Assembly (NCBI GenBank): GCA_902606105.1 | Contig: CACLFK010000003.1 | Location: 24,972-88,971 of the forward strand | Source of the DNA: an uncultured Pelagibacteraceae bacterium | Lineage (GTDB): Bacteria > Pseudomonadota > Alphaproteobacteria > Pelagibacterales > Pelagibacteraceae | Direction: 5' to 3' | DNA: 64,000 nt | In this document: positions 5,737 to 42,128 of the stretch, one piece after another | Layout: the number at the start of each line of letters is the position of its first letter | Numbering within the stretch: position 1 is the stretch's first letter | The notes under the pieces: model-generated | Told to the model about the DNA's origin: nothing | Seen by the model: the letters and a program-made list of their open reading frames with translations, nothing else | Database searches by the model: none | Position numbers and translations under genes: made by a program

Positions 5737-6111
5737 CTACTTTAGTTTACCTTCTTCTCTCATTTTTGCTCTAATTTTGGTTGCTGAAATTTTTTGAGTC
5801 TCTTCGTCCAGTACTATTTCCTCAATTTTGTAACCAACTCCCCTTCCATAGCAAATATTGGTAATATTCGGTACAAGTATAATTTTAAATCTCCCCTCAT
5901 ATTCAGGGTTTAATCTATCCTCAATATTTTTTTTGACAGTGTTAAAATCAAATGGATTGTCATCAACACCTTGTACATCTCTTATTTGAATACAAACTTG
6001 ACCAGTTTTTTTTATTATTTCCTTAAATAATGTGAAATGGCCATCATGAAATGGTTGCCATCTTCCTAACATTTGTGCTGTTGGTTTTTTATTATCCCAT
6101 TGATAAGTCAT
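5737..6111 (-). CDS. Nucleotidyltransferase (cytidylyltransferase-like, HxGH)
   Basis: 'GRWQPFHDGHFTLFKEI' HxGH motif and 'ISATKIRAKM' motif. Confidence 0.8.
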   Translation of the reverse strand: MTYQWDNKKPTAQMLGRWQPFHDGHFTLFKEIIKKTGQVCIQIRDVQGVDDNPFDFNTVKKNIEDRLNPEYEGRFKIILVPNITNICYGRGVGYKIEEIVLDEETQKISATKIRAKMREEGKLK

Positions 6112-6517
6112 TTTTTATCTCCTCAGAAATTTTTAAAGCCCATTTTTTAGCATCTTTAGTAGTAACATGATAATTAAATGTTTTTGGCTTCACAAACATT
6201 TCATTAGTATCTTCAAAACGACCCTTATTTATTGTATCTACCCAAATTATACAATCTGAAGGAAATAGTTTTCTTGCTTCGGGTGTTGGGGCGATAAAAT
6301 CAGCAATAACATAATGCCCCTGATCTTTTAATTTTAAAGAAAATTCAGCCATTCTTTTTGCTTGTCTAATTCTTCCTTCCATAGAAAAATCCCAATCATT
6401 AGCTTCTTTCCTAACCTCATCGGCATTTACTCTTTTTGCACTTAAAATAGGAGCTAGTTCATTTGCTAAAGTTGTTTTTCCTGCCCCTGGTAATCCCATT
6501 ATTAAAATTATCTTCAT
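6092..6517 (-). CDS. P-loop kinase, adenylylsulfate-kinase-like
   Basis: 'MGLPGAGKTTLANELAPIL' Walker A; overall APS-kinase-like layout. Confidence 0.7.
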   Translation of the reverse strand: MKIILIMGLPGAGKTTLANELAPILSAKRVNADEVRKEANDWDFSMEGRIRQAKRMAEFSLKLKDQGHYVIADFIAPTPEARKLFPSDCIIWVDTINKGRFEDTNEMFVKPKTFNYHVTTKDAKKWALKISEEIKNDLSMG

Positions 6518-7151: not shown

Positions 7152-8342
7152 TCATTTCAATAAATTATTTGCCACCCATTTATGAAAGTGGTGTGTTGCA
7201 TTATCCATTACAGGTGAAAAATTTCCACCATTATAAGATGGTGATTTTCTTCCCATCTGCATTCCTTCTATAATATTTAAATCTTCTTTCTGTACATCTT
7301 TCCAAAGTTTAAAATTTTGCTCCCTAAGTGACTTATATTTTGCAGAATTCGCAGCGTCTTTACCAACGTAATAAATTTCCATATGCTCTTTAGTAGTATT
7401 ATTACTAATTGGTTCAAGCCAATATGCATAAAAATGATCCTTGTGTATACCAAGCATAACGTTAGGAAATAGAGCGACGTATTCTGCAACATGTTCTTTA
7501 TTTTTTGGCCAATTTGGGAAACTAGGTAAATTTAATTTTCCTTTAAACTTAGGATTATAAACAATTGTACCTTGGCCTGCAAAACGATTTGGTAATCCTT
7601 TTATATGATAATGATCCTTAATTTTTGAATAAGAATTTAATCCTGGATGAACCCATGGGAGATGGTAGCTTTCACAATAATTTTCAATTGCAAATTTCCA
7701 GTTAGTTTTTGCATTAAGATTAAAGTGACCGTAGTCTCTGGAAAAAACTATTAATTTCCTATCATTTTTGGGCCAAAATTTTTCCCACCTATCACTTAAT
7801 GGTTTGATGTATGTATCAAAATCTAATTCATTATTATTTAAATTTACAAAAATTAAATCAAGCCAAACTTTTGATTTTATTTCTTTAAGATTACTTCTAG
7901 ATTTATCAAATTTATTGCAATTATGCTTATTCATTCCTCCAATATGTGGTGTTGCTATTAATTTTCCATTGAAATCATACGACCATGAATGATAAGGACA
8001 TCTTATCAGATTTTTAATTTTGCCTTCTTTCTGAATTATCTTGTATCCTCTGTGGCTACAAACGTTGTGATATACTCTAACTTTTTGGTTTCGATCTCTT
8101 AAAATAATTAAAGGAATTCCTAAGAGATCAAATGGTTTAATATCACCAATGTTAGGTACGGAGCTACCAATACCAATAACAATCCATTTGTTTTCAAAAA
8201 TTTTTTTTCTTTCGATTATGAAATAATTTTTATTAACGTAACATTCGTTTGGTAAGCCATGAGCTTTTTCAATTGGCCGATTTACCATTCTAAGTTTTTT
8301 TAAATCTAACAATCTAAATAAATTCTTTTTTTTAACATTCAT
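7152..8342 (-). CDS. Rieske non-heme iron oxygenase, alpha subunit (choline/quaternary-amine monooxygenase-like)
   Basis: Rieske 'CSHRGY...RCPYHSW' and mononuclear iron site 'ENYCESYHLPWVHPG'. Confidence 0.88.
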   Translation of the reverse strand: MNVKKKNLFRLLDLKKLRMVNRPIEKAHGLPNECYVNKNYFIIERKKIFENKWIVIGIGSSVPNIGDIKPFDLLGIPLIILRDRNQKVRVYHNVCSHRGYKIIQKEGKIKNLIRCPYHSWSYDFNGKLIATPHIGGMNKHNCNKFDKSRSNLKEIKSKVWLDLIFVNLNNNELDFDTYIKPLSDRWEKFWPKNDRKLIVFSRDYGHFNLNAKTNWKFAIENYCESYHLPWVHPGLNSYSKIKDHYHIKGLPNRFAGQGTIVYNPKFKGKLNLPSFPNWPKNKEHVAEYVALFPNVMLGIHKDHFYAYWLEPISNNTTKEHMEIYYVGKDAANSAKYKSLREQNFKLWKDVQKEDLNIIEGMQMGRKSPSYNGGNFSPVMDNATHHFHKWVANNLLK

Positions 8343-8525: not shown

Positions 8526-9536
8526 ATGAAAATTAAAAGAATACTAATTTCACTTGCTCTTGTTTTTGGTTTAACTTCATTTGGAAGTGTTGCCAATGCA
8601 GCTTGTGGAAATATAACTATTGCTAATATGAACTGGGCTTCTGCTAATTTTATGGCTGAAGTTGATAAAGTTATATTAGAAGAAGGATATGGATGTTCTG
8701 TTGAGCTTGTTCCAGGATCGACAATGCCTACATTTACATCTATGCAAGAAAAAGGTGAGCCAGATATAGCTCCAGAGTTTTGGGCAAATGCTGCGAAGGT
8801 AGAATTAGAAGCTGCTGTTGCTGAAGGAAAACTTCATTCAATAAACAAAGCTCCTATTACTGGGTTAGGTGAAGGTTGGTGGGTACTTCCTGCTACTTTA
8901 GAGAAACATCCAGAATTAACTACTGCTGATGCAATTCTAAAAAGACCTGACTTATTTCCTCATCCAGAAGATCCATCAAAAGGTGGATTTCATATTTGTC
9001 CTCCAGGATGGAACTGTGAATTAAGTAACAGAAATCATTTTAGAGCATGGGGAATGGAAGATAAAGGATGGATGATAGTTGAAACTGGTTCAGCTGCAGG
9101 ACTTGATGGATCAATTGCAAAAGCTGCTGAAAGAGGAGAAAACTGGTTTGGTTATTATTGGTCTCCAACAGCAATAATCGGTAAGTACAACATGCAAGCT
9201 GTAGATATGGGTGAATATGCTGGTAAAGATAACTGGGATAATTGTTTATCAAAACCAGAACAAGAGTGTGCTAATCCATTAAAATCTTCATGGGTAAAAT
9301 CTGAGGTTTACTCAGTTGCTACTGACAATTTCAAAAAAACTGCTGGTAAAGAAGGTATGAGTTATTTAGAAAAAAGAACTTATCCTGGTCCAGTTATGAA
9401 TGGAATGTTAGTTTGGATGGGTGAAAACCAAGCTGAAGGTGCAGATGCTGCAATTGAATTCTTAAAAACACAGGAAGATGTGTGGACTAAGTGGGTTTCA
9501 AAATCGGCTGCTAAAAAAATAAAAAAAGCACTTTAA
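8526..9536 (+). CDS. proX: Glycine-betaine/quaternary-amine ABC transporter substrate-binding protein
   Basis: Signal peptide, OpuAC-like 'ITIANMNWASANFMAEVDKVILEEGYGC'; followed by a ProW-like permease. Confidence 0.85.
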   Translation: MKIKRILISLALVFGLTSFGSVANAACGNITIANMNWASANFMAEVDKVILEEGYGCSVELVPGSTMPTFTSMQEKGEPDIAPEFWANAAKVELEAAVAEGKLHSINKAPITGLGEGWWVLPATLEKHPELTTADAILKRPDLFPHPEDPSKGGFHICPPGWNCELSNRNHFRAWGMEDKGWMIVETGSAAGLDGSIAKAAERGENWFGYYWSPTAIIGKYNMQAVDMGEYAGKDNWDNCLSKPEQECANPLKSSWVKSEVYSVATDNFKKTAGKEGMSYLEKRTYPGPVMNGMLVWMGENQAEGADAAIEFLKTQEDVWTKWVSKSAAKKIKKAL

Positions 9537-9592: not shown

Positions 9593-10480
9593 ATGGAATT
9601 CTTTAACAAAATACCTGTAATGGACAGAACAGCCTTGAGAGAGCTAAAAAAAAGTATTGATTTTAGTTTTAAGGAATTTTCTAGAGCTTACGGAGATGGA
9701 ATAGAAGGTTTTTTTGATCCTCTTTTATATTTTTTAATTTGGTTAGAAAAACTATTGGTAAGTAGTCCTTGGCCTCTAGTTATAGGTATTTTTGCATTGC
9801 TAGCGTGGGTTGGTTCAAGAAGCATAAAGCTTGTGGTTGGGACTATAGTTTGTTTTATGGTTATTGGATATTTTGGTATGTGGAAAAATTGTATGGCTAC
9901 TGTTGCTATAATTTCTGTATCAACGCTAGTTTGTATTGTGGTGGGTATACCGATTGGAGTATTAATGTCTAAATCGGCTAGAGCTGAAAAAACAATTTTG
10001 CCTGTATTAGATATGATGCAAACTATTCCTAGTTTTGTTTATTTAATTCCTATAATTATGCTGCTCGGTATTGGAAAGGTTCCTGGTTTACTGGCGGTAT
10101 GTATTTATGCATTACCTCCAATTGTGAGACTTACAAACTTAGGTATTAGGGAAGTTGACAAAGAAACGCTAGAAGCAAGCGAGGCTTTTGGTGCAACCCC
10201 GATGCAGAAATTAAGATCTGTCCAAATTCCACTTTCTTTACCGACAATATTTGCTGGCATTAACCAGACAATTATGATGGCCTTAGCTATGGTTGTTATA
10301 GCATCGATGATAGGTGTCCGAGGATTAGGAGTGCCTATTTTACAAGCTATATCTAACCAATATCTTGCTCTTGGTTTAATGAATGGTTTGGCAATTGTTG
10401 CTCTTGCCATTATCTTTGACCGGGTGACGCAGCAGTACGGACAAAGAATACAAAAGCACAGAGGTCAACTTAAAAAATAA
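9593..10480 (+). CDS. proW: Glycine-betaine/proline-type ABC transporter permease
   Basis: 295 aa; 'LDMMQTIPSFVYLIPIIMLLGIGKVPG' ProW-like, 'EASEAFGATPMQKLRSVQIPLSLPTI' EAA loop. Confidence 0.88.
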   Translation: MEFFNKIPVMDRTALRELKKSIDFSFKEFSRAYGDGIEGFFDPLLYFLIWLEKLLVSSPWPLVIGIFALLAWVGSRSIKLVVGTIVCFMVIGYFGMWKNCMATVAIISVSTLVCIVVGIPIGVLMSKSARAEKTILPVLDMMQTIPSFVYLIPIIMLLGIGKVPGLLAVCIYALPPIVRLTNLGIREVDKETLEASEAFGATPMQKLRSVQIPLSLPTIFAGINQTIMMALAMVVIASMIGVRGLGVPILQAISNQYLALGLMNGLAIVALAIIFDRVTQQYGQRIQKHRGQLKK

Positions 10481-10538: not shown

Positions 10539-11267
10539 ATGAATTTTTCATTAGAAATAGGTCCTAAAACTAATATTGAAACTTTACCACCAATAAGTGA
10601 TATTTATATTACTATGTTACCTGGTGGAGATTATAAAGAAACAGCAGACAAGGCTGTTGAACTTGTCAAAAAAGGATTTAATCCAGTTCCTCATTTTCCA
10701 GCTAGATCAATGCAAAATGAAAAAGAGCTTAAAGATTATGTTGATAGATGTAAAGATGGTGGGGTTAAACAAGTTTTAATAATTGGTGGTGGAAGAGAAC
10801 CTGCAGGAAAATTTGACAGTTCATTTCAACTTTTAGAGACAGGTTATTTTGAAAAAATGAAAATAGGAATAGCTGGACATCCTGAGGGGAGTCCTGATAT
10901 ATCCGATAGGGAATTAGAGACAGCTATGATAGATAAAAAGCCTTATGCTGATTATATAGTAACTCAATGGTTACTTGATCCTCAGCCTATTATAGATTTT
11001 ATCTCTAAACAAAGCATACCAGTGCATGTAGGAATTACTGGGCCTTTAAAAATATCTAGCTTAATCAAATTTGCTAATATTGTGGGGGCAAAAAATTCTA
11101 TTAATTTTCTTAAATCTAATTTTACTAAGGCGTTAGATTTATTGAAACCTAAAGACCCTAATGATTTAATTGGGAAAGTTAAATCGCATACTGATAACTT
11201 CCACATTTATACATTCGGCGGCTTGAAGGAAACTAACAAGTGGTTGAAGGAGAATAGTTATGTCTAA
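10539..11267 (+). CDS. Methylenetetrahydrofolate reductase-like protein
   Basis: MetF TIM-barrel-like: 'NPVPHFPARSM', 'LIIGGGREPAGKF', 'IGIAGHPEGSPD'; start of next CDS overlaps. Confidence 0.8.
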   Translation: MNFSLEIGPKTNIETLPPISDIYITMLPGGDYKETADKAVELVKKGFNPVPHFPARSMQNEKELKDYVDRCKDGGVKQVLIIGGGREPAGKFDSSFQLLETGYFEKMKIGIAGHPEGSPDISDRELETAMIDKKPYADYIVTQWLLDPQPIIDFISKQSIPVHVGITGPLKISSLIKFANIVGAKNSINFLKSNFTKALDLLKPKDPNDLIGKVKSHTDNFHIYTFGGLKETNKWLKENSYV

Positions 11268-12618
11268 TGAATTTGACTATACTAAATTAAAACATGTTAC
11301 TTCTGTTGATCAATCAGACAGAGAAGTACCATATAATTTAAGACAAAGTGGGCCAACAAAAGTTGAAATGTTAATTTCAACAAGGGTAAGAAAGTCACCC
11401 TATTGGCATTTATCAATGCAGGCTGGTTGCTGGAGGGCAACTGTATATAATCGTATTTATCATCCAAGAGGTTATGTAAAACCTGAAGATGGTGGTGCGA
11501 TGGTAGAATACGATGCAATTGTTAATCATGTAACTATGTGGAACGTTGCTGTTGAAAGGCAAATAAGAGTTAAGGGTCCAGATGCAGAAAAATTTACTGA
11601 TTATGTAATTACTAGAGATGCTACTAAAATTTCTCCAATGAGAGCGAGATATGTAATTTTATGTAATGCCTATGGTGGAGTTTTAAATGACCCAATTCTT
11701 CTAAGAATTTCTGAAGATGAATTTTGGTTTTCATTGTCAGATTCTGATATTGGAATGTATTTACAAGGAGTGAATGCAGATGGAAGGTTTAATTGTACAG
11801 TTGAAGAGATAGATGCATGTCCAGTTCAAATTCAGGGACCAAAATCAAAAGCTTTAATGAAAGACCTTTGTGGAGATCAAGTAGACTTTGATAATATGCC
11901 TTTTTATGGATTGGCTGAAGCTAATGTAGGGGGAAGAAGTTGTGTGATTTCTCAATCTGGTTTCTCTGGAGAAGCCGGGTATGAAATATATTTAAGAGAT
12001 GCAACTTTATATGCTGAAGATATGTGGAATGCTGTTCTAGATGCAGGAAAACAACATAGTCTTATGGTAATTGCGCCTGCACATCATCGAAGAATTCAAG
12101 CAGGTATACTTTCTTGGGGGCAAGACATGGACCAACAACACAATCCTTTTCAATGTAACTTGGGATATCAAGTTTCTTTATCTGGAAAAGGAGAATGGAA
12201 TAAAAAGGGTGACTATGTTGGAAAAGCTGCTTTAGAAAAAATGAAAGCAGATCTCGTAGATGGAAAAAAGCCTTATAAATTACAATTAGTTGGGTTGGAA
12301 TTTGGTGGTAAACCAATTGAAGATTACGCACCTGACTTTTGGCTGGTTTCTCCTGAAAGTGGCGGCGATCCTGTGGGGTTTATTACATCACCTTGGTATC
12401 ATCCTGAAAAAAAACAAAACATTGCAATGGGATATGTCCCATTTGATGGAACACTTAATGCTAATGGCTTTCCAAAAGGTAAGGTTGGAACAAGGTTTAA
12501 AGTTCATTTGCCAGAGCAGTACTCTGAAAAAGCAGGAGTTCCAGTTGAAGCAGTTGTAGTTGATATTCCATTTAAAGAGTCTTTTAACGCAAATACAAGG
12601 GAAGTTGTAAAAGGCTAA
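11260..12618 (+). CDS. GcvT/DmdA-like aminomethyltransferase (folate-dependent demethylase homolog)
   Basis: 'MWNVAVERQIRVKGPDAEKF', 'GGVLNDPILLRI', 'VQIQGPKSKALM', 'SGFSGEAGYEIYLRD' GcvT family motifs, with resemblance to DmdA. Confidence 0.8.
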   Translation: MSNEFDYTKLKHVTSVDQSDREVPYNLRQSGPTKVEMLISTRVRKSPYWHLSMQAGCWRATVYNRIYHPRGYVKPEDGGAMVEYDAIVNHVTMWNVAVERQIRVKGPDAEKFTDYVITRDATKISPMRARYVILCNAYGGVLNDPILLRISEDEFWFSLSDSDIGMYLQGVNADGRFNCTVEEIDACPVQIQGPKSKALMKDLCGDQVDFDNMPFYGLAEANVGGRSCVISQSGFSGEAGYEIYLRDATLYAEDMWNAVLDAGKQHSLMVIAPAHHRRIQAGILSWGQDMDQQHNPFQCNLGYQVSLSGKGEWNKKGDYVGKAALEKMKADLVDGKKPYKLQLVGLEFGGKPIEDYAPDFWLVSPESGGDPVGFITSPWYHPEKKQNIAMGYVPFDGTLNANGFPKGKVGTRFKVHLPEQYSEKAGVPVEAVVVDIPFKESFNANTREVVKG

Positions 12619-12627
12619 AAACATTTT

Positions 12628-12650
12628 GGGGGAGCAAATTAAACTCCCCC
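12628..12650 (+). other. GC hairpin (GGGGGAG ... CTCCCCC) after the DmdA-like gene
   Basis: 7-bp stem, no U-tract; possible terminator or processing site. Confidence 0.35.
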
Positions 12651-12660
12651 CATAAAATCA

Positions 12661-12771
12661 ATGACAAAAGGTTTTTTAATAGGAATTTGCGTTACGATTG
12701 CAATTGCATTAATAGTATTTCCCTTGATAGTCTCATATAAAGCACAAAAAAATAAAAAGAATAAAAATTAA
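12661..12771 (+). CDS. Small single-TM protein, 36 aa (MTKGFLIGICVTIAIALIVFPLIVSYKAQKNKKNKN)
   Basis: Below the ORF-track length cutoff; TM helix plus Lys/Asn tail; stop overlaps next ATG (TAATG). Confidence 0.5.
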   Translation: MTKGFLIGICVTIAIALIVFPLIVSYKAQKNKKNKN

Positions 12772-13316
12772 TGTTTGGTGAATTTTTAAATATAATCTTC
12801 AAATCAATAAAATTAGATAAGACTCTTTATTCAGATAATAAGAATTTTACAGAAGCTTCAATTTATTTTGCAGGTATTATAATGATTTTAGATGGTATAG
12901 CTGGTGCGGTTGCAGCAAATACAATAATTAAAACTGCAATTGCTATGTCTGGCATTACAGCAATAATTACTTGGCTTATTTGGGCAATTTTTATTTATGT
13001 TATAGGTGTAAAACTTTTTCCGGATAAACAAACAAAAGTTTCATTTAAAAAAGTTTTAACTGCAGTTGGTTATGCACATGCTCCAGGTCTGCTAAGATTT
13101 TTTGCAGTAACACCAGACTTAATGATACCAATAATCTTTCTTACACAATTTTGGATATTTGCTGGTTTAATTATTTCAACAAAACAAATTCTAAATCTAA
13201 AATCTAATTTTAAATCTTTTGGAATTATTCTTTTATCTTTCCTAATTATAGCATTTTTATCTATTTCATTTGTGATGAGTAGAATGAATATGCTTCCAGT
13301 TAGTCAAATAAGTTAA
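12771..13316 (+). CDS. Yip1-like multi-TM membrane protein
   Basis: 181 aa, ~5 TM; 'KKVLTAVGYAHAPGLLRFFA' Yip1-like motif. Confidence 0.65.
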   Translation: MFGEFLNIIFKSIKLDKTLYSDNKNFTEASIYFAGIIMILDGIAGAVAANTIIKTAIAMSGITAIITWLIWAIFIYVIGVKLFPDKQTKVSFKKVLTAVGYAHAPGLLRFFAVTPDLMIPIIFLTQFWIFAGLIISTKQILNLKSNFKSFGIILLSFLIIAFLSISFVMSRMNMLPVSQIS

Positions 13317-22316: not shown

Positions 22317-25309
22317 GATCTAACTCTTTCTCCTTTTGGATCTACATAATGTGATGAAACAATTTCAACTGGAATTACTTTGTTTTTCAATGGAGACATA
22401 ACGAATAATTTTTCTCCAATCATATTTTTTCCATCCTTTAAAATTGCAAGTGAAAAAGGATTGTCATGCTCTACACTCCAGCATGAGGCGGATATGTGTC
22501 CTAATTTTTTATTTGGTAATGGAGCCTTAGCATCTTTCACTAAATGTGATCCCTCTGGTATACTTGTTTTTTTATCTAGAGGGACTACTCCAACGATCTT
22601 TTGTCTATCATCAGAGGTAAAAGCTTCTCTATTTAATGATCTTTTTCCAATAAAATCTTTCTTTTTACTAATTAATCCCTCTAATGACGTATCATAGGAA
22701 ATAGTTCTTCCATCAAGTTCTGAACCTGCCACATGGCCCATTTCGATCCTTAAAGTAGATAATGCCTCTGTTCCATAAGGTTGAACTTTAAACTCTTGAC
22801 CTAGTTCAATTATTTTTTCCCACATAAAGTTTCCATTGTTAGACTCTACATTTACCTCGTACGCTAATTCACCTGAAAATGAGATTCTAAAAATTCTAGC
22901 TTTAACCCCAAACAAATCTGACTCTAAGTAGCCCATGAAAGGTAGTCCTTCGTTTGAAACATCATTATTAGGAAATAATTTTTCTAATAATTTTCTCGAT
23001 TTTGGTCCTGCAATTGCCGCACCAGCCCATTGTTCAGTTGTAGAAACTACATTAACATTCAATTCTGGCCAAACAAGTTGCAGATAATATTCTAAATGTG
23101 AAAGGACATTTGCGGCTTGTGCTGTAGTAGTTGTCATATGGTAATGATTTTCAGAAACCCTCGTTGTTGTTCCATCGTCCATAACTATTCCGTCTTCTCT
23201 AAGCATCACTCCATATCTTGCTTTACCAACTGGCAACTTTAACCAAGCATTTGTGTAAACTCTATTTAACAGTTCTGCTGAATCAGGACCTTTGATGTCA
23301 ATTTTTCCTAAAGTGGTAACATCACAAACACCAACATTCATTCTAACATTTTTGGCTTCTCGTTTTGATGCCTCAAAAAGATTTTCTTTACCTTGCTTAT
23401 AATATCTTGGTCTTAACCAAACTCCAGCATCGACAAATACAGCATTATTTTTTTCATGCCATGAATGCATAGGAGATTTACGTATAGGTTTGGAATGCTT
23501 TCCAACTTCTCTTCCTACAATTGCTCCAATAGATATTGGAGTGTATGGAGGTCTAAAAGTAGTATGACCTACTGCAGGTACAACTTTATTTTCAATATCA
23601 GAAACTAATTGTAGTCCATTCAAATTGCTTGTTTTACCTTGATCAGTTGCCATCCCTAGAGTTGTGTATCTTTTAACATGCTCTATTGATCTATACCCTT
23701 CTTTTAAAGCTATTTCGATATCTGAAACAGCAACATCATTTTGAAAATCTAAAAATCTCTTATAACTTTTTCCTTTAGGCAAAGGCACACACCAAAACTT
23801 GTCATGTTGAGAAGATTTTTTCTCAACAACATTAGGAAATGAAATTTTATTATCATTATTTGTTATTTTTTTTGACAAATCTTGTCCAGCTGTGAATGAA
23901 CTTTTTAAAGTTTCTTCTAGTGTAAAAGTTCCATTAGCAGCACCTAAAGTTCTTTCATTCTGCTTAGATGTCCCAGGCACAAAAGCATCAATTTCTTCCT
24001 TAAATTTAGTTTTATTACCCGATTGGGAGGCTAAATGAATAGTTGGTGTCCAGAAACCAGAGACACAAATACAATCACACTTAATATTTTCAACTGTACC
24101 AAGTTGCTTTTTATCATCAGAAATTTTTGCGATATCTGCTGAACTTACTTTTTTATATCCTTGTGCTGCAACAACAACATATGAAAATTTTATTTTAATA
24201 CCCTGGTTTATTGCTTCATCAATGATTTCTGATTGTGGATTTACTCTTGTATCTAAAATAATTGGATTAATTCCATTTTTCTTAAATTCGATTGCTGTTT
24301 CATATCCACTATCATTATTTGTAAAAACTAGTGGATTTTTACCAACCAAAACACCGTATACTTTTAAATATTCTTTAGCCGCTGAGGACAACATAACGCC
24401 AGGAGTATCATTATTCCCAAAAACTATTGGTCTTTCAATTGATCCTGAGGAAATTAAAACCTCTTTTGCCCTAATATACCAAAGTCTTTGTTTTGGATGG
24501 TGTTTTTTTGTTTTTGGAAGATGGTCGCTTACTTTTTCTGACATCACCAACATATTATGATCATAATACCCAAAAACTTGAGATCTATTTTTAACAACCA
24601 CATTTGGCATTTCATTTAATTCGGAAATAATACTATTTGCCCAATCCTCACCTGATTGATTTCCAATATTTACATCGCTAGTTAATAAAGATCCTCCAAA
24701 TCTTGGTTTGTCCTCAGCTAGAATAACTCTCGCGCCATTTTTTGCTGCTGCATAAGCACTTGCTAAACCTGATGGACCCGAACCAGTAATTAATAAATCA
24801 CAATATTCATATTTATGCTCGTATCTTTCTTTGTCATGTTTGGTTGATGCAACACCTAATCCTGCAGCTTTCCTGATAAATGGTTCATAAATTCGATACC
24901 AAAAACTTTTAGGCCACATAAAGGTCTTGTAATAAAAGCCCGCAGGTAAAAAAATTTTTAAAAAGTTATTAATTGCACCAATATCAAAGTTAACACTGGG
25001 CCAACAATTTACACTTTTAGCCTCCAGTCCTTCAAAAAGTTCTTGCTCCGTAGCTTTTATATTTGGTTCAGTTTCGTTATTTCTATAAAGCTGAACGATA
25101 GCATAAGGCTCATCTACGCCAGCTCCAAAAAACCCTCTTGGTCTGTGATATTTAAAGCTTCTACCCACCAAATGAATTCCATTAGCAATTAAAGCAGATG
25201 CTAAAGTATCTCCTTCATATCCATAGTATGTTTTTCCGTTAAATTTGAATGATAATTTTTTATCTCTATTAATTAGTCCACCATTTTCTAATCTAAATTT
25301 TTGAACCAT
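22313..25309 (-). CDS. soxA: Sarcosine oxidase alpha-like subunit (FAD/NAD + GcvT domains)
   Basis: 998 aa; '[23 protein letters not shown]', '[29 protein letters not shown]', C-terminal GcvT domain. Confidence 0.9.
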
Positions 25310-34453: not shown

Positions 34454-36607
34454 TTAAGCTATGCCAAGATGTTTTTTTCTTTTGCCCACCCAAGTTCTGA
34501 TTAAATTATCAAATATTAAACCTATGAAAGCAACACAAATACCTAGTGTTAGTCCAATACCAGCTCCATTTTTATCAGATAAAGCCTTCAAGATATATTG
34601 TCCTAAGTCTTCTGTTCCAATAAAAGCACCAATAATGACCATAAATAAAGCGAAAACAATCGTCTGATTTAAACCAAGCATCATATGAGGAAAAGCTAAT
34701 GGGAACTCTATTTTTGTTAACCTTTGAAATTTATTTACACCAGACATTGTTGCGGCTTCATGTAAACCTATCGGAACACTTCTAAGGCCCTCAATTGTAT
34801 ATCTAGTTGCAGGTATCGTTGCATAAACGATTACAGCAATCAGTACTGAAGTATCGGTTATTCCAAATAGCATCATAACTGGGATCAAGTATACAAAGGA
34901 TGGGAAAGTTTGAAATATATCACAAACACCTAACATAAATCTTGCTGCACTCTTGCTTTGAAAGCATAGGGTTCCAACAGTAAAACCAATCAAGCAAGAA
35001 ATAATTACACCAAAGGTTGCCATGTAAGTAGTTACTAATGCTCTATCCCACCAAGGACTTAAGGCTATAAACAAAGTTAAGCCACACACGACTAATGCTG
35101 ATCTAATTCCACCAATTAAATAACCAGCTCCAACTACTAAAACAATTGTAGCAACAGCAGGCATTCTTAAATATAGCGCTCGCATTGGCTGTAACACTTC
35201 TTGAATTAACCATGTGTTAAATGCTTTTATATAAACAAAAAATGTATCAAAGATCCAATCAACTCCTTTATTCCAAAAATCCGCCGTTGATATTCCTTTA
35301 TTATGTGGAATTTCAAACAAATAATTGAATGTTCCTTTAAATAAAAAAGTTCCTATATAAGCAAGAATAATTCCTATAATAAATGCTCCAATAAAAAATA
35401 TAGTATTTTTATTTCTTTCAAAGAATGTAAGATTTCCAAAATAGTCTGTTTGTTTATTTGCCCATGCCAAAGACATTTTATCTAATAATATTGCGATCAG
35501 ACTAATACATAAACCCGCTTCTAAAGCTAATCCAATATTAAGCTGATTAAGAGCTAATAATAAATTAAAACCTAAACCCTTAGCTCCAATAAAAGCTGAG
35601 ATAACTGCCATTGAAAAACACACCATTATTACCTGGTTAACTCCAATCAGTATATCTCTTCTAGCTGTAGGAATTAATACTTTAAACATTAGTTGCCAGT
35701 TATTGCATCCGCTCATCCTACCTGCTTCAATTACCTCTGGAGGTATAGCTCTTAAACCTAATAAAGTTAACAATATCATCGGTGGAATAGCGACTATCAT
35801 AGTGATAATGACTGCTGCATGATCACCAACTCCAAATAAAACAAGTGCAGGAACAAGAACTGCATATTGTGGCATGGTCTGCATAACTAAAAGTATTGGA
35901 TATAAAGCTTTTTCAACTCGTTTACTTTTAAATGCAGATATACCCAGACCTAGTCCAAATATAAATGACAATGGTGCAGCAACTAATATAAATGAAAGAG
36001 TTTGCATTGATGGTTTCCACTGACCAAAAATAGAAATGTAAACCATGGTCAAACCAGCGAAAATGGCCAAACCTTTACCGCTCAGCTTGTAAGATAATAT
36101 TGTGGCACCTGCAGCAACAATAGTCCATGGTAAACCTGGTAATTCTGCCCATGGATTAGCATCAATAAAATCCCAACTTGTAAATGCAACAATAGTTTCT
36201 AGTCCGCCTAATAAAATCTCTCTAATTAACTCAATTATAAAAGTCATGAAACCTGTTAAATTTCTACTAATTTGTAAGAGAAGAGGTCTAGTTTTAAATT
36301 CTTGTGTGTCTTCATTCCAAAACTCCATAGGCATCCAGTCGTTCATTAAGAAAAACAGTGAGTCATTTATCCAGATAGGCAACCATCCAAGCAATGGAGG
36401 TAATCTCCAGAATACATCAAAAGCATAGTATCTTACCTCTTTACCTGCAAAAACAAAGGTACTTTGGTTAGGGTCTTTGATAAACTCTGCCTGACCTCTT
36501 ATAAATTTATATGTTTCTGGGACTTCGATTGAAAAACATAAGGCAAAAAAAACAACTAATAAAAACAACCATTGAAATATCTTTGGGTTTTTTTTTAAAA
36601 ATTCCAT
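34454..36607 (-). CDS. tmoW: TMAO/quaternary-amine ABC transporter permease with two ProW-type domains
   Basis: 717 aa; two tandem permease cores ('VMQTMPQYAVLVPALVLFGVGDHAAV...' and 'IFQTFPSFVYLIPVMMLFGITDTSV...'); beside Tmm/Tdm. Confidence 0.85.
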   Translation of the reverse strand: MEFLKKNPKIFQWLFLLVVFFALCFSIEVPETYKFIRGQAEFIKDPNQSTFVFAGKEVRYYAFDVFWRLPPLLGWLPIWINDSLFFLMNDWMPMEFWNEDTQEFKTRPLLLQISRNLTGFMTFIIELIREILLGGLETIVAFTSWDFIDANPWAELPGLPWTIVAAGATILSYKLSGKGLAIFAGLTMVYISIFGQWKPSMQTLSFILVAAPLSFIFGLGLGISAFKSKRVEKALYPILLVMQTMPQYAVLVPALVLFGVGDHAAVIITMIVAIPPMILLTLLGLRAIPPEVIEAGRMSGCNNWQLMFKVLIPTARRDILIGVNQVIMVCFSMAVISAFIGAKGLGFNLLLALNQLNIGLALEAGLCISLIAILLDKMSLAWANKQTDYFGNLTFFERNKNTIFFIGAFIIGIILAYIGTFLFKGTFNYLFEIPHNKGISTADFWNKGVDWIFDTFFVYIKAFNTWLIQEVLQPMRALYLRMPAVATIVLVVGAGYLIGGIRSALVVCGLTLFIALSPWWDRALVTTYMATFGVIISCLIGFTVGTLCFQSKSAARFMLGVCDIFQTFPSFVYLIPVMMLFGITDTSVLIAVIVYATIPATRYTIEGLRSVPIGLHEAATMSGVNKFQRLTKIEFPLAFPHMMLGLNQTIVFALFMVIIGAFIGTEDLGQYILKALSDKNGAGIGLTLGICVAFIGLIFDNLIRTWVGKRKKHLGIA

Positions 36608-37643
36608 AGGTTAATTTCCATTTTTTCCTTCCACCAAAGACTGTATTGATTATCTTTGTAGGATTAATAGAGCCTATAATTTTATTATTACTATCTATGA
36701 CTCCTACAGTTTTTTCTTGAGTTAGAATTTTTTCAGCAACATTTTCAATAATCTCATCTTTTGAAACTCTTAAATCTCCTAAATTGTCATTTTTAGTTTG
36801 ATCCATTACATCTTCAATTAACAAAACTTTTTCTCTTGGAACTTCCTCAGTAAATTTCCTCACATATTCAGTTGCGGGATTTAAAACTATTTTAGCGGGT
36901 GTATCTAATTGTTCAATGATACCATCTTTCATAATTGCTATTCGATCAGCTAGCTTTAAAGCTTCATCAAAATCATGAGTAATGAACATAATAGTTTTTT
37001 GCAATTTATCTTGAAGTCTTAAAAATTCATCCTGCATTTCTTTTCGGATCAAAGGATCTAACGCGGAAAAAGGTTCATCTAAAAACCAAATATCTGGTTC
37101 TACTGCTAAAGATCTTGCAATACCAACTCTTTGCTGTTGTCCTCCTGATAGTTCTCTTGGAAAATAGTTTTCTCTTCCATCTAGTCCAACTAACTTAACC
37201 ATATCCATTGCCTTGCTAATGCTATCGTCAGTGTTAATCCCTTTGATTTGAAGTGGGAATGCAATATTTTCTACTACAGTTTTATGTGGCAATAACGCGA
37301 AGCTCTGAAAAACCATTCCCATTTTATTTCTTCTAAGATCAATGAGTTCTTTGTTGTTCAAGTCTAATAAATCTTGACCCTCTATAAAAATTTTTCCTCC
37401 TGTTGCATCTGTTAATCTTGAAATACATCTAAGTAATGTTGATTTGCCTGATCCAGATAAACCCATCACAACCAACATTTCTCCTTTTGCTACTTCAAAA
37501 GAAGCATTATTAACTCCAACTATACATCCGTTTTCTTGAAAAGTTTTTGCATCTACATTTCCATTTGCTTCTTGAAGCATTTTTTCAGCATTTTCGCCAA
37601 AAATTTTATAAACAGACTCACATTTAATAACTGCGTCAGACAT
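36507..37643 (-). CDS. tmoV: TMAO/quaternary-amine ABC transporter ATPase (C-terminus probably mis-extended; see finding)
   Basis: Walker A 'GLSGSGKSTLLRC', signature 'LSGGQQQRVGIARSLA', C-terminal CBS-like region; last ~33 codons overlap tmoW out of frame. Confidence 0.88.
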   Translation of the reverse strand: MSDAVIKCESVYKIFGENAEKMLQEANGNVDAKTFQENGCIVGVNNASFEVAKGEMLVVMGLSGSGKSTLLRCISRLTDATGGKIFIEGQDLLDLNNKELIDLRRNKMGMVFQSFALLPHKTVVENIAFPLQIKGINTDDSISKAMDMVKLVGLDGRENYFPRELSGGQQQRVGIARSLAVEPDIWFLDEPFSALDPLIRKEMQDEFLRLQDKLQKTIMFITHDFDEALKLADRIAIMKDGIIEQLDTPAKIVLNPATEYVRKFTEEVPREKVLLIEDVMDQTKNDNLGDLRVSKDEIIENVAEKILTQEKTVGVIDSNNKIIGSINPTKIINTVFGGRKKWKLTYGIFKKKPKDISMVVFISCFFCLMFFNRSPRNI

Positions 37644-37709
37644 AAATTATTATTAAGTTATACGAAATTTAATTGAATTAATATGCATATAATACTTGTT
37701 TCTCCTTAA

Positions 37710-39782: not shown

Positions 39783-42128
39783 TTGAAGATGTTAGGAACT
39801 AGTAAAGATATAAAATATCCAGGACTAAATATTTTACCACCAGGAGTTGAAAGACATACTGTAAATGGTGGTGGCCTCACTGCTTTTCATATTTTCCCTG
39901 ATGATGAAATAGAGATTATCAATAACGAAGGAAATCAAATTTGTGAAATTATATGTTTTAATAAAGACGGAAAATCAGATGTAGGTATTTTAAATCTTAA
40001 AAGTAACAACAATAAAAATTTTATTAGAGATATTTTAAGTAAAAAAGATGAAAGTATTATAGCAACCAATTATCAACTTAAAAAACTAAATTTAAATATT
40101 TCAGAATCAAAATCCTCAATAGTGTTTGATGTTGATACCCAAATTAGTGAAAAAATTAATTTAAAGTCAAAAGATAAATGTTTTGCAATATTTGCAGCTC
40201 CTGGGGGAGACATGGATGTTACAAAGCAAAATCCTCCTACTGATTTAATTATTTACATTAAAAGAGCAAGTATTATTAATGACAAAGAATTAAATGTTAT
40301 TCCAAACCCTGTCTTTGAACCTTTACATGAAGAAAATATAGATAAAGCAAGTAGCATATCTTATGAAGTTAAAGAAGGTGATTACATCCAAGTAATAAGT
40401 CCTACTGGAAGACAATGTTCAGACTTTGTAGCATTTGATACAAGGAAACTAGAAAAAGGAATTGAGAAAGGTTTGGATTGGCAAACAACTAGAACTTTCA
40501 TGGGAAATACATTTCCAGGTCCAGGATTATTTTCTAAATTTTATGATACTGATCACGAACCTTTGGTAGAAGTAATTAGAGATACCGTTGGTAAACACGA
40601 TACTTTTAATCTTGCCTGTACTTCAAAGTACTATGAAGATGCTGGTTATTTTGGTCATGCAAATTGCTCTGATAATTTGTCAGAAAGTATGTCCAAGTAT
40701 GGTCTACAAAAACAAAAAGGGTGGCACGCAATTAATTTATTTTTTAATACCTCTGAAGGTGGATTAAACTCGGTTGTTTCAGATGAATCTTATTCGCGTC
40801 CTGGTGATTATGTCATGTTTAGAGCCTTAAAAGATTTAACTATTGGAACAACAGCATGTCCTAGTGATATAGATCCTTGTAATTCATGGAATCCAACTAA
40901 TATTTTTGTTAGAACATATGACAAAAAAAAAGAATTTACTAAATCATTTGCATTCAGAATGAAAACAGACTCTGAAAAAAAACTCACTAGAAACTCTGGC
41001 TTTTATGAACGAACATCAAAGCTAACTAGAAACTTTATAGATGCTAGAGGCTTTTGGCTTCCAAATGATTATACAAAACATGGACTTGTTAATGAGTACA
41101 ACGCTTGCAGAAATGATGCAGTTTTAATTGACTTATCTTCATTAAGAAAATTTGAAATTATTGGCCCTGATGCAGAAGAATTATTAAATTATACGCTTAC
41201 AAGAAACATTAAAAAATTATCCGTAGGTCAAGTTGTATATTCTGCAATGTGCTACGAAAATGGAATGATGTTTGATGACGGTACTCTTTTACGATTAAGT
41301 GAGACTGGTTTTAGATGGATCTGTGGAGATGAATATGGAGGTGAATGGTTAAAAGAAATTGCAAAAAAGAAAAATTTCAATGCAAATATAAAAAATTCAA
41401 CTGACCAAATAAGTAACGTTTCATTACAGGGTCCAAAAAGTAGAGAAATTTTAAAAAAGATAATTTTTACACCTCCAACCCAACCTTCAATAGATGAACT
41501 TGGTTGGTTTAGATTTAGCATTTGTAGGATAGAAGAGTTACAAGGAATACCATTGATTGTTTCTAGAACTGGTTATACTGGTGAGCTAGGTTATGAAATT
41601 TGGTGTCACCCTAAACATGCTTCTGAAGTCTGGGATAAATTAATGGAAGCAGGAAAAGAAGATGGTTTGATTCCTGCAGGATTTGGAGCTCTAGATAAAC
41701 TTAGAATTGAAGCAGGATTAATTTTATTTGGTAATGAGTTTGACGGTCAACAAGATCCTTTTGAGGCAGGTATTGGTTTTGCTGTTCCATTGAAAACAAA
41801 AGAAGAGGATTTTATTGGTAAAGAAGAATTAATAAAAAGAAAAAATAACCCTCAAAAAAAACTTGTTGGGTTAGAATTAGCAGGCAAAGAAATTGCGGGT
41901 CATGGTGACTGTGTTCATATCGGAAGATCTCAGATAGGTGTGGTTACAAGTGGATGTTTATCCTCAACTTTAAATAAAAATATAGCATTGTGTAGAATGG
42001 ACATGCAGTATTCAGAGATTGGAAATGAGGTTGAAATTGGTAAAATTGACGGTCATCAAAAAAGAATAAGTGCCAAAGTAGTTGCTTTTCCTTTTTATGA
42101 CCCGACTAAATCTAAAGTAAGATCATAG
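39783..42128 (+). CDS. tdm: Trimethylamine N-oxide demethylase (Tdm; DUF1989-like + GcvT domains)
   Basis: 781 aa; 'YIQVISPTGRQCSDFVAFD', 'FNLACTSKYYEDAGYFGHANCSDN', 'GTTACPSDIDPCN', C-terminal GcvT domain 'LQGPKSREIL'. Confidence 0.9.
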   Translation: MKMLGTSKDIKYPGLNILPPGVERHTVNGGGLTAFHIFPDDEIEIINNEGNQICEIICFNKDGKSDVGILNLKSNNNKNFIRDILSKKDESIIATNYQLKKLNLNISESKSSIVFDVDTQISEKINLKSKDKCFAIFAAPGGDMDVTKQNPPTDLIIYIKRASIINDKELNVIPNPVFEPLHEENIDKASSISYEVKEGDYIQVISPTGRQCSDFVAFDTRKLEKGIEKGLDWQTTRTFMGNTFPGPGLFSKFYDTDHEPLVEVIRDTVGKHDTFNLACTSKYYEDAGYFGHANCSDNLSESMSKYGLQKQKGWHAINLFFNTSEGGLNSVVSDESYSRPGDYVMFRALKDLTIGTTACPSDIDPCNSWNPTNIFVRTYDKKKEFTKSFAFRMKTDSEKKLTRNSGFYERTSKLTRNFIDARGFWLPNDYTKHGLVNEYNACRNDAVLIDLSSLRKFEIIGPDAEELLNYTLTRNIKKLSVGQVVYSAMCYENGMMFDDGTLLRLSETGFRWICGDEYGGEWLKEIAKKKNFNANIKNSTDQISNVSLQGPKSREILKKIIFTPPTQPSIDELGWFRFSICRIEELQGIPLIVSRTGYTGELGYEIWCHPKHASEVWDKLMEAGKEDGLIPAGFGALDKLRIEAGLILFGNEFDGQQDPFEAGIGFAVPLKTKEEDFIGKEELIKRKNNPQKKLVGLELAGKEIAGHGDCVHIGRSQIGVVTSGCLSSTLNKNIALCRMDMQYSEIGNEVEIGKIDGHQKRISAKVVAFPFYDPTKSKVRS

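Follow-up and report, generated by a model that had tools for sequence, protein, structure and literature searches.

Here, we describe a pair of overlapping genes in an uncultured Pelagibacteraceae bacterium (SAR11), found in a 64,000-nt stretch of contig CACLFK010000003.1 (hereafter the window) from an assembly of 1.03 Mb that is 72.6% complete. A MetF-like gene and a gene for a 452-aa GcvT/DmdA-like protein lie directly 3' of proX and then proW, all on the same strand (Table 1). The two reading frames of the pair overlap by 8 nt (11260-11267), and all but one of 127 loci of relatives (126) have exactly this overlap. Orthologs of the 452-aa protein (at least 77% identity) were found in 84 of 101 genomes (this one and relatives) and in 21 of the 22 with a completeness of 90% or more; the MetF-like gene was matched in 81 of the 101, with a single MetF match per genome. 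Because the overlap is kept and the orthologs recur in near-complete relatives, the pairing is not chance. The original prediction had described both the 8-nt overlap and a position after proXW; the ORF coordinates agree with each, and the placement of proXW varies among SAR11 loci. Of the 70 SAR11 loci whose upstream sequence is long enough, just 33 have proXW directly before metF, which makes it a common neighbour but no constant component.

Table 1. Features at the locus, numbered by window position
Feature	Position	Strand	Description
MetF-like ORF	10539-11267	+	242 aa; proposed 5-methyl-THF oxidase; catabolic, SYK-6-type MTHFR flavoprotein
GcvT/DmdA-like ORF (C452)	11260-12618	+	452 aa; proposed glycine betaine:THF methyltransferase
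proX	8526-9536	+	OpuAC-type substrate-binding protein, DmpX-like; neighbour varying by strain
proW	9593-10480	+	Permease; BPD_transp_1 (Pfam), best profile matches ProW and ChoW
Rieske oxygenase	7152-8342	-	Divergent conserved neighbour of metF; pathway role uncertain
Motif SGFSGEAGYEIY	11956-11991	+	C452 residues 233-244; includes Phe235

Pfam assigned the 452-aa protein a GCV_T domain (1e-38), a weak GCV_T_C and no other domain, and on this basis membership of the GbcA or MtgB/PF06253 families was rejected. The DmdA-like stretch quoted earlier, WNVAVERQIRVKGPDA, was confirmed in the protein. Against NCBIfam models it scores 224.6 bits for DmdA (PRK12486; equivalog cut-off 410), 147 and 130 bits for GcvT (cut-offs 300 and 235.9, respectively), and 37 and 40 bits for LigM/DesA (cut-offs 580 and 800), the last two placing it outside the LigM/DesA O-demethylases by these models. 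A separate DmdA is encoded in the same genome (L003, contig C17), with 515.6 bits against the 410 cut-off and 54% identity to P. ubique DmdA. In a tree of 56 rows, the 452-aa proteins form one clade (support 99/99), named C452 here; as the LigM rows are very long branches, a second tree was made without them (52 rows), with the same outcome (100/98). In both trees DmdA is a clade apart from C452 (100/99 and 100/100), C452 is also apart from the DmdA-like SAR11 paralogs, and the GcvT rows, on long branches, are placed outside C452. Cut-offs and trees together rule out both a canonical GcvT and a DmdA, of which the genome holds its own. The protein has the GcvT motifs, and the difference from SAR11 DmdA, that the original prediction gave it, and the phylogenetic comparison proposed there sets C452 outside the DmdA and GcvT clades alike. 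Within the GcvT/DmdA superfamily C452 stands as a clade of its own, and its substrate is proposed from a well supported pathway context. A second DmdA-like clade scores 365-386 bits, slightly under the DmdA cut-off, and includes genes on contig C5 of the same genome (L002 1393-2532) and on a Phaeobacter plasmid (L143 7971-9113), the latter in a row with genes for OsmC, enoyl-CoA hydratase and acyl-CoA synthetase.

A fold search with the AlphaFold model of the 452-aa protein (mean pLDDT 77, pTM 0.81) returned DmdA first (3tfh, TM 0.88 by target length), followed by GcvT, dimethylglycine oxidase/dehydrogenase, sarcosine oxidase and LigM, with YgfZ and IBA57 also among the matches. The closest solved relative is DmdA, a THF methyltransferase, and a THF-binding GcvT fold is predicted. 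Many residues are invariant across the C452 clade, including parts of the N-terminal 44 residues, which are modelled at low confidence. Residues whose conservation is specific to the clade include W58, Y67, H68, W286 and Y303. At the DMSP-specific position (W171 in PMC7487153), 28 of 29 C452 proteins have Phe (Phe235); DmdA carries Trp or Tyr there, with Tyr in three of the four DmdA rows here. Other THF-related roles are known for proteins of the GcvT fold, such as YgfZ and IBA57, and C452 might likewise lack demethylase activity of its own and act instead as a THF-binding accessory or a regulator of dimethylglycine dehydrogenase (DMGDH) or other C1 enzymes; its many clade-invariant residues, its tight pairing with a MTHFR and the GcvT-type domain that DMGDH-like neighbours themselves carry make such a role very improbable.

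The MetF-like protein narrowly matches Pfam MTHFR (4e-6, 26.8 bits; cut-off 24) and scores 28.8 bits against the biosynthetic MTHFR model, with a cut-off of 293.7. Its sole PDB match is SYK-6 MTHFR (7xg9, 3.8e-33), to which it is closer than to biosynthetic MTHFR. When aligned with E. coli MetF, it retains Glu28 and Gln183 and has the RGD motif replaced, while PHxxAR and AG[HY]PEG motifs are common, wholly or partly, to the MetF-like protein, SYK-6 MTHFR and the MTHFRs adjacent to C452 elsewhere. Asp120 of E. coli MetF corresponds to Gly in SAR11 family f1 and to Asp in family f2 and haloarchaea, and therefore no claim is built on it. SYK-6 MTHFR is reported to belong to a subfamily that prefers 5-methyl-THF oxidation and co-evolved with a THF-dependent demethylase (2026 review, PMC13001107); the gene described here is likewise paired with one of THF demethylase type. 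Since SAR11 is reported to be without MetH and MetE (PMC5069961; PMC12478193), reduction to 5-methyl-THF would serve no obvious biosynthetic use. The MetF-like protein probably runs oxidatively, from 5-methyl-THF to 5,10-methylene-THF.

The sole PDB match of ProX is the DMSP-binding DmpX (7yle, 8e-62), and seven of the eight DMSP-contact residues of RnDmpX (PMC10030565) are kept (W35, T64, W84, E113, W152, Y200 and W202), with Ala153 replaced by Asn163. There are two alleles of proX at this site (83-97% versus 58-64% identity), both retaining the DmpX cage residues and having Asn or Gly at position 163; the adjoining metF (82-94%) and the 452-aa gene are better conserved. No ATPase gene lies beside proW; across the window a single ABC-ATPase-like frame was detected, at 36510-37646. 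A DmpX-like ProX that varies by strain says little about the substrate of the pair itself. As DmdA demethylation of DMSP also yields 5-methyl-THF, a DMSP importer beside a shared metF is plausible without DMSP necessarily being the substrate of C452.

Gene order, protein family and the presence of one MetF match in each genome suggest that the pair is SAR11_1264/1265 of strain HTCC1062. Sun et al. (2011) described SAR11_1265, the neighbour of SAR11_1264 (metF), as an aminomethyltransferase whose substrate was unknown, and their speculation was that it removes the second methyl in DMSP degradation (PMC3160333). The mRNAs of both genes are among those that drop strongly in stationary phase (PMC5069961). 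In the literature text searched, which takes in a minority of subscription journals and preprints, there was no experimental assignment of function for the pair. That speculation, the dmpXW-like genes directly 5' in part of SAR11, the solved structure nearest to C452 and a DmdA-like gene following C452 in one relative (L187) would all suit a role in DMSP metabolism, either as a second DMSP demethylase or in removing the second methyl, that of MMPA. MMPA is a neutral thioether, a weaker methyl donor than an onium, and is chemically disfavoured in this role. The genome has its separate DmdA with more than the required score, DmdB (NF005426) is above cut-off in just 2 of 25 C452 carriers, a count that is supporting only as the model may miss SAR11 DmdB, and no known DMSP genes are found among the C452 clusters of family f206 or of haloarchaea, all of which leaves a role in DMSP metabolism improbable. 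An acyl-CoA synthetase gene beside Fhs in the SAR11-order family f2 was considered as DmdB and rejected, scoring 315 bits against the NF005426 cut-off of 822.

Further upstream, a Rieske oxygenase was found in 50 of 58 SAR11 loci; the one in the window has carnitine monooxygenase 6y9c as its closest PDB entry and is far under the GbcA cut-off. Where proXW is absent, the divergent Rieske gene is ~110 bp from metF. A conserved pair of minus-strand genes for a 124-aa nucleotidyltransferase-like and a 141-aa kinase-like protein (5737-6111 and 6092-6517) is also upstream of metF in many SAR11 genomes. Elsewhere in the window, GcvT-like domains occur in two longer proteins (41034-41990 and 22625-23488), which by length and context are TMAO-demethylase-like and sarcosine-oxidase-alpha-like, respectively; the region therefore holds several C1 genes.

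Close named relatives of the 452-aa protein (93-99% identity) are all Pelagibacteraceae/SAR11, and C452 as a clade reaches further. Carriers make up 19 of 385 sampled alphaproteobacteria, in 13 families. A phylum sample of 399 genomes contained six carriers, made up of this genome, an alphaproteobacterium counted before and four genomes of another class, taken to be Gammaproteobacteria, in families f202 and f206. Haloarchaea, among them Halomicrococcus, Halobellus, Haloarcula and Haladaptatus, have full-length homologs with 50-57% identity on plasmids, in Haloarcula hispanica on the megaplasmid. A GcvT-like gene whose product shares 40% identity with the 452-aa protein is also present on a 'Bacteriophage sp.' scaffold from human faeces (MT835505.1; L200 6001-7143), which may be a bacterial contig.

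Outside SAR11, the neighbours of C452 are genes of glycine betaine catabolism, DMGDH-like here denoting FAD proteins of 810-880 aa that themselves include a GcvT domain and whose substrate is presumed. Among alphaproteobacteria, two genomes of family f32 have soxBDAG, DMGDH-like, MTHFR and C452 genes in one run, and in f142 C452 is followed by DMGDH-like, etfBA and ETF-QO genes. DMGDH-like genes are found with SoxA/SoxB around C452 in three genomes of f77, divergent from C452 in f31, and with SoxBA, MTHFR and Fhs in f17. The clusters of three f206 genomes hold DMGDH-like, L-serine ammonia-lyase, GbdR, Fhs, MTHFR (recognised in two of the three) and C452 genes; this GbdR scores 497.9 bits (NCBIfam cut-off 480), and a GbdR-like gene 39% identical to it is 1.2 kb from C452 in f82. 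Haloarchaeal C452 clusters include MTHFR in four of five cases and variously hold SHMT, IlvA, FolD, Fhs, formate dehydrogenase, a BCCT transporter and DMGDH-like oxidoreductases, with a Rieske protein in that of Haloarcula.

Within SAR11, an ortholog of the f142 DMGDH (85% identity) lies ~5-12 kb from the pair (L189, L191, L192, L194). The DMGDH gene of this genome is just beyond the window (C3:22036-24459), and in HTCC1062 dmgdh (SAR11_1253, named by Sun et al.; PMC3160333) is 11 genes away from metF SAR11_1264. In the SAR11-order relative L187, the DmdA-like gene (11659-12795; 371.9 bits, cut-off 410) is directly 3' of metF and C452, with DMGDH-like and Sox genes downstream of it.

Co-occurrence by genome agrees with these neighbourhoods. 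A full-length DMGDH-like gene is present in 19 of 19 C452 carriers versus 121 of the 385 sampled alphaproteobacteria (P ~1e-10 by genome; P ~2e-7 with the 13 families as independent units and a genus background rate), and neither C452 nor DMGDH-like genes occur in two complete genomes from a different genus of the same family. Other first-step enzymes are mostly absent from carriers: GbcA is above cut-off in 1 of 25, with one further just below, and MtgB-type PF06253 is found in 2 of 27. Mutual exclusion of C452 and GbcA among DMGDH carriers was not detected, the overlap of one genome being not significantly smaller than expected by chance (P = 0.18).

What this context specifies is a methylated-amine pathway with DMGDH and Sox, and the breadth of the DMGDH-like family, with its presumed substrates, weighs against glycine betaine in particular, as do the seven carrier families outside SAR11 in which DMGDH is not within ~10 kb of C452. 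C452 could instead demethylate one or more other quaternary amines or betaines (for example carnitine, choline or proline betaine) by the same THF/MetF chemistry, and it fits this that a Rieske oxygenase nearest carnitine monooxygenase adjoins the SAR11 pair and that another Rieske protein is present in the Haloarcula cluster. The SHMT, SdaA or IlvA partners and GbdR point to glycine betaine, however, and we regard another amine as unlikely, if somewhat less so than a role in DMSP metabolism.

We therefore propose, with moderate confidence, that C452 is a cobalamin-free, THF-dependent glycine betaine demethylase and that the MetF-like protein oxidises the resulting 5-methyl-THF, so that the proposed kind of system is a THF-dependent onium demethylase with an oxidative MTHFR. 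With glycine betaine and THF both bound in its GcvT/DmdA-type fold, C452 would take one methyl off the quaternary nitrogen and place it on N5 of THF; the products would be dimethylglycine and 5-methyl-THF. The MetF-like flavoprotein would convert the latter to 5,10-methylene-THF, which would pass to FolD, Fhs and formate dehydrogenase for energy, while dimethylglycine would become sarcosine and then glycine via dimethylglycine dehydrogenase followed by sarcosine oxidase. We infer the substrate, the product and the direction of the MetF step. That C452 is paired with a MTHFR implies a THF product at the methyl level. Methylene-THF is what the DMGDH and Sox steps yield, and glycine betaine is favoured because its demethylation is the pathway step that would give methyl-level THF and hence need a MTHFR. 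It is favoured also because GbdR and serine-metabolising enzymes accompany C452 and because the other first-step enzymes are so rare in carriers. The outline of the original prediction, in which a methyl donor passes its methyl to THF and the MetF-like protein oxidises the product, is supported by a THF-methyltransferase relative, a SYK-6-type MetF and the reported lack of MetH and MetE, its chemistry staying at the level of a proposal. The substrate, left there as a betaine, DMSP or an analogue, is narrowed towards glycine betaine by the context across lineages, and the adjacent transporter is largely uninformative on this point.

Among marine osmolytes glycine betaine is a major one, and no marine heterotrophs are more abundant than SAR11. 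A point against our reading is that SAR11 has Bhmt, the enzyme currently proposed for the first betaine step and stated as not experimentally validated; the same 2025 paper has this step run via Bhmt alone, tying betaine use to methionine synthesis (PMC12478193). SAR11 bhmT is under SAM-II/SAM-V riboswitches and is induced ~34-fold in sulfur limitation (PMC5069961), which suits methionine supply better than betaine catabolism, and C452 and Bhmt may both act, under differing conditions. Whether a betaine-to-folate route free of cobalamin, oxygen and homocysteine is the main catabolic route of SAR11, scattered in proteobacteria and haloarchaea, with Bhmt serving mainly methionine supply, we hold to be evenly balanced. 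If true, such a direct folate route would uncouple betaine catabolism from methionine need and explain betaine methyl respiration in a lineage without MetH, MetE and MtgBCD, and C452 could serve as a genetic marker of betaine turnover in ocean and hypersaline waters.

Among known systems, C452 shares the GcvT fold, the NDP region and the Glu/Tyr of the folate-binding motif with DmdA (Ca. Pelagibacter ubique SAR11_0246, PDB 3tfh-3tfj), which passes a methyl from an onium osmolyte to THF in a redox-neutral reaction yielding 5-methyl-THF, the chemistry proposed for C452. It differs from DmdA in its ~32% identity, separate clade, score under the equivalog cut-off, longer N-terminus and gene partners (DMGDH, Sox and MTHFR). 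LigM/DesA with SYK-6 MTHFR follow the same two-enzyme logic, a THF-dependent demethylase and a 5-methyl-THF-oxidising MTHFR, but LigM acts on aromatic methoxyl groups of lignin aromatics and is remote from C452 in sequence. The Rieske glycine betaine monooxygenase GbcAB also takes the first betaine step, yet is oxygen-dependent, releases formaldehyde and is unrelated to C452. Bhmt (SAR11_1173) converts glycine betaine to dimethylglycine, as is proposed for C452, but passes the methyl to homocysteine, is under SAM-riboswitch control and belongs to another protein family. The same job as that proposed here, betaine methyl to THF followed by MetF2 oxidation, is that of MtgBCD and MetF2 of Ruegeria pomeroyi (PNAS 2025), a pathway that continues via dimethylglycine and sarcosine steps and SdaA and is reported absent from Pelagibacteraceae (PMC12478193); unlike C452, MtgBCD is corrinoid-based and of the MttB family, and 25 of 27 C452 carriers are without PF06253. 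The pair itself was noted already in 2011, and what is new is the clade, its spread beyond SAR11, its betaine-pathway context and its contrast with the cobalamin route.
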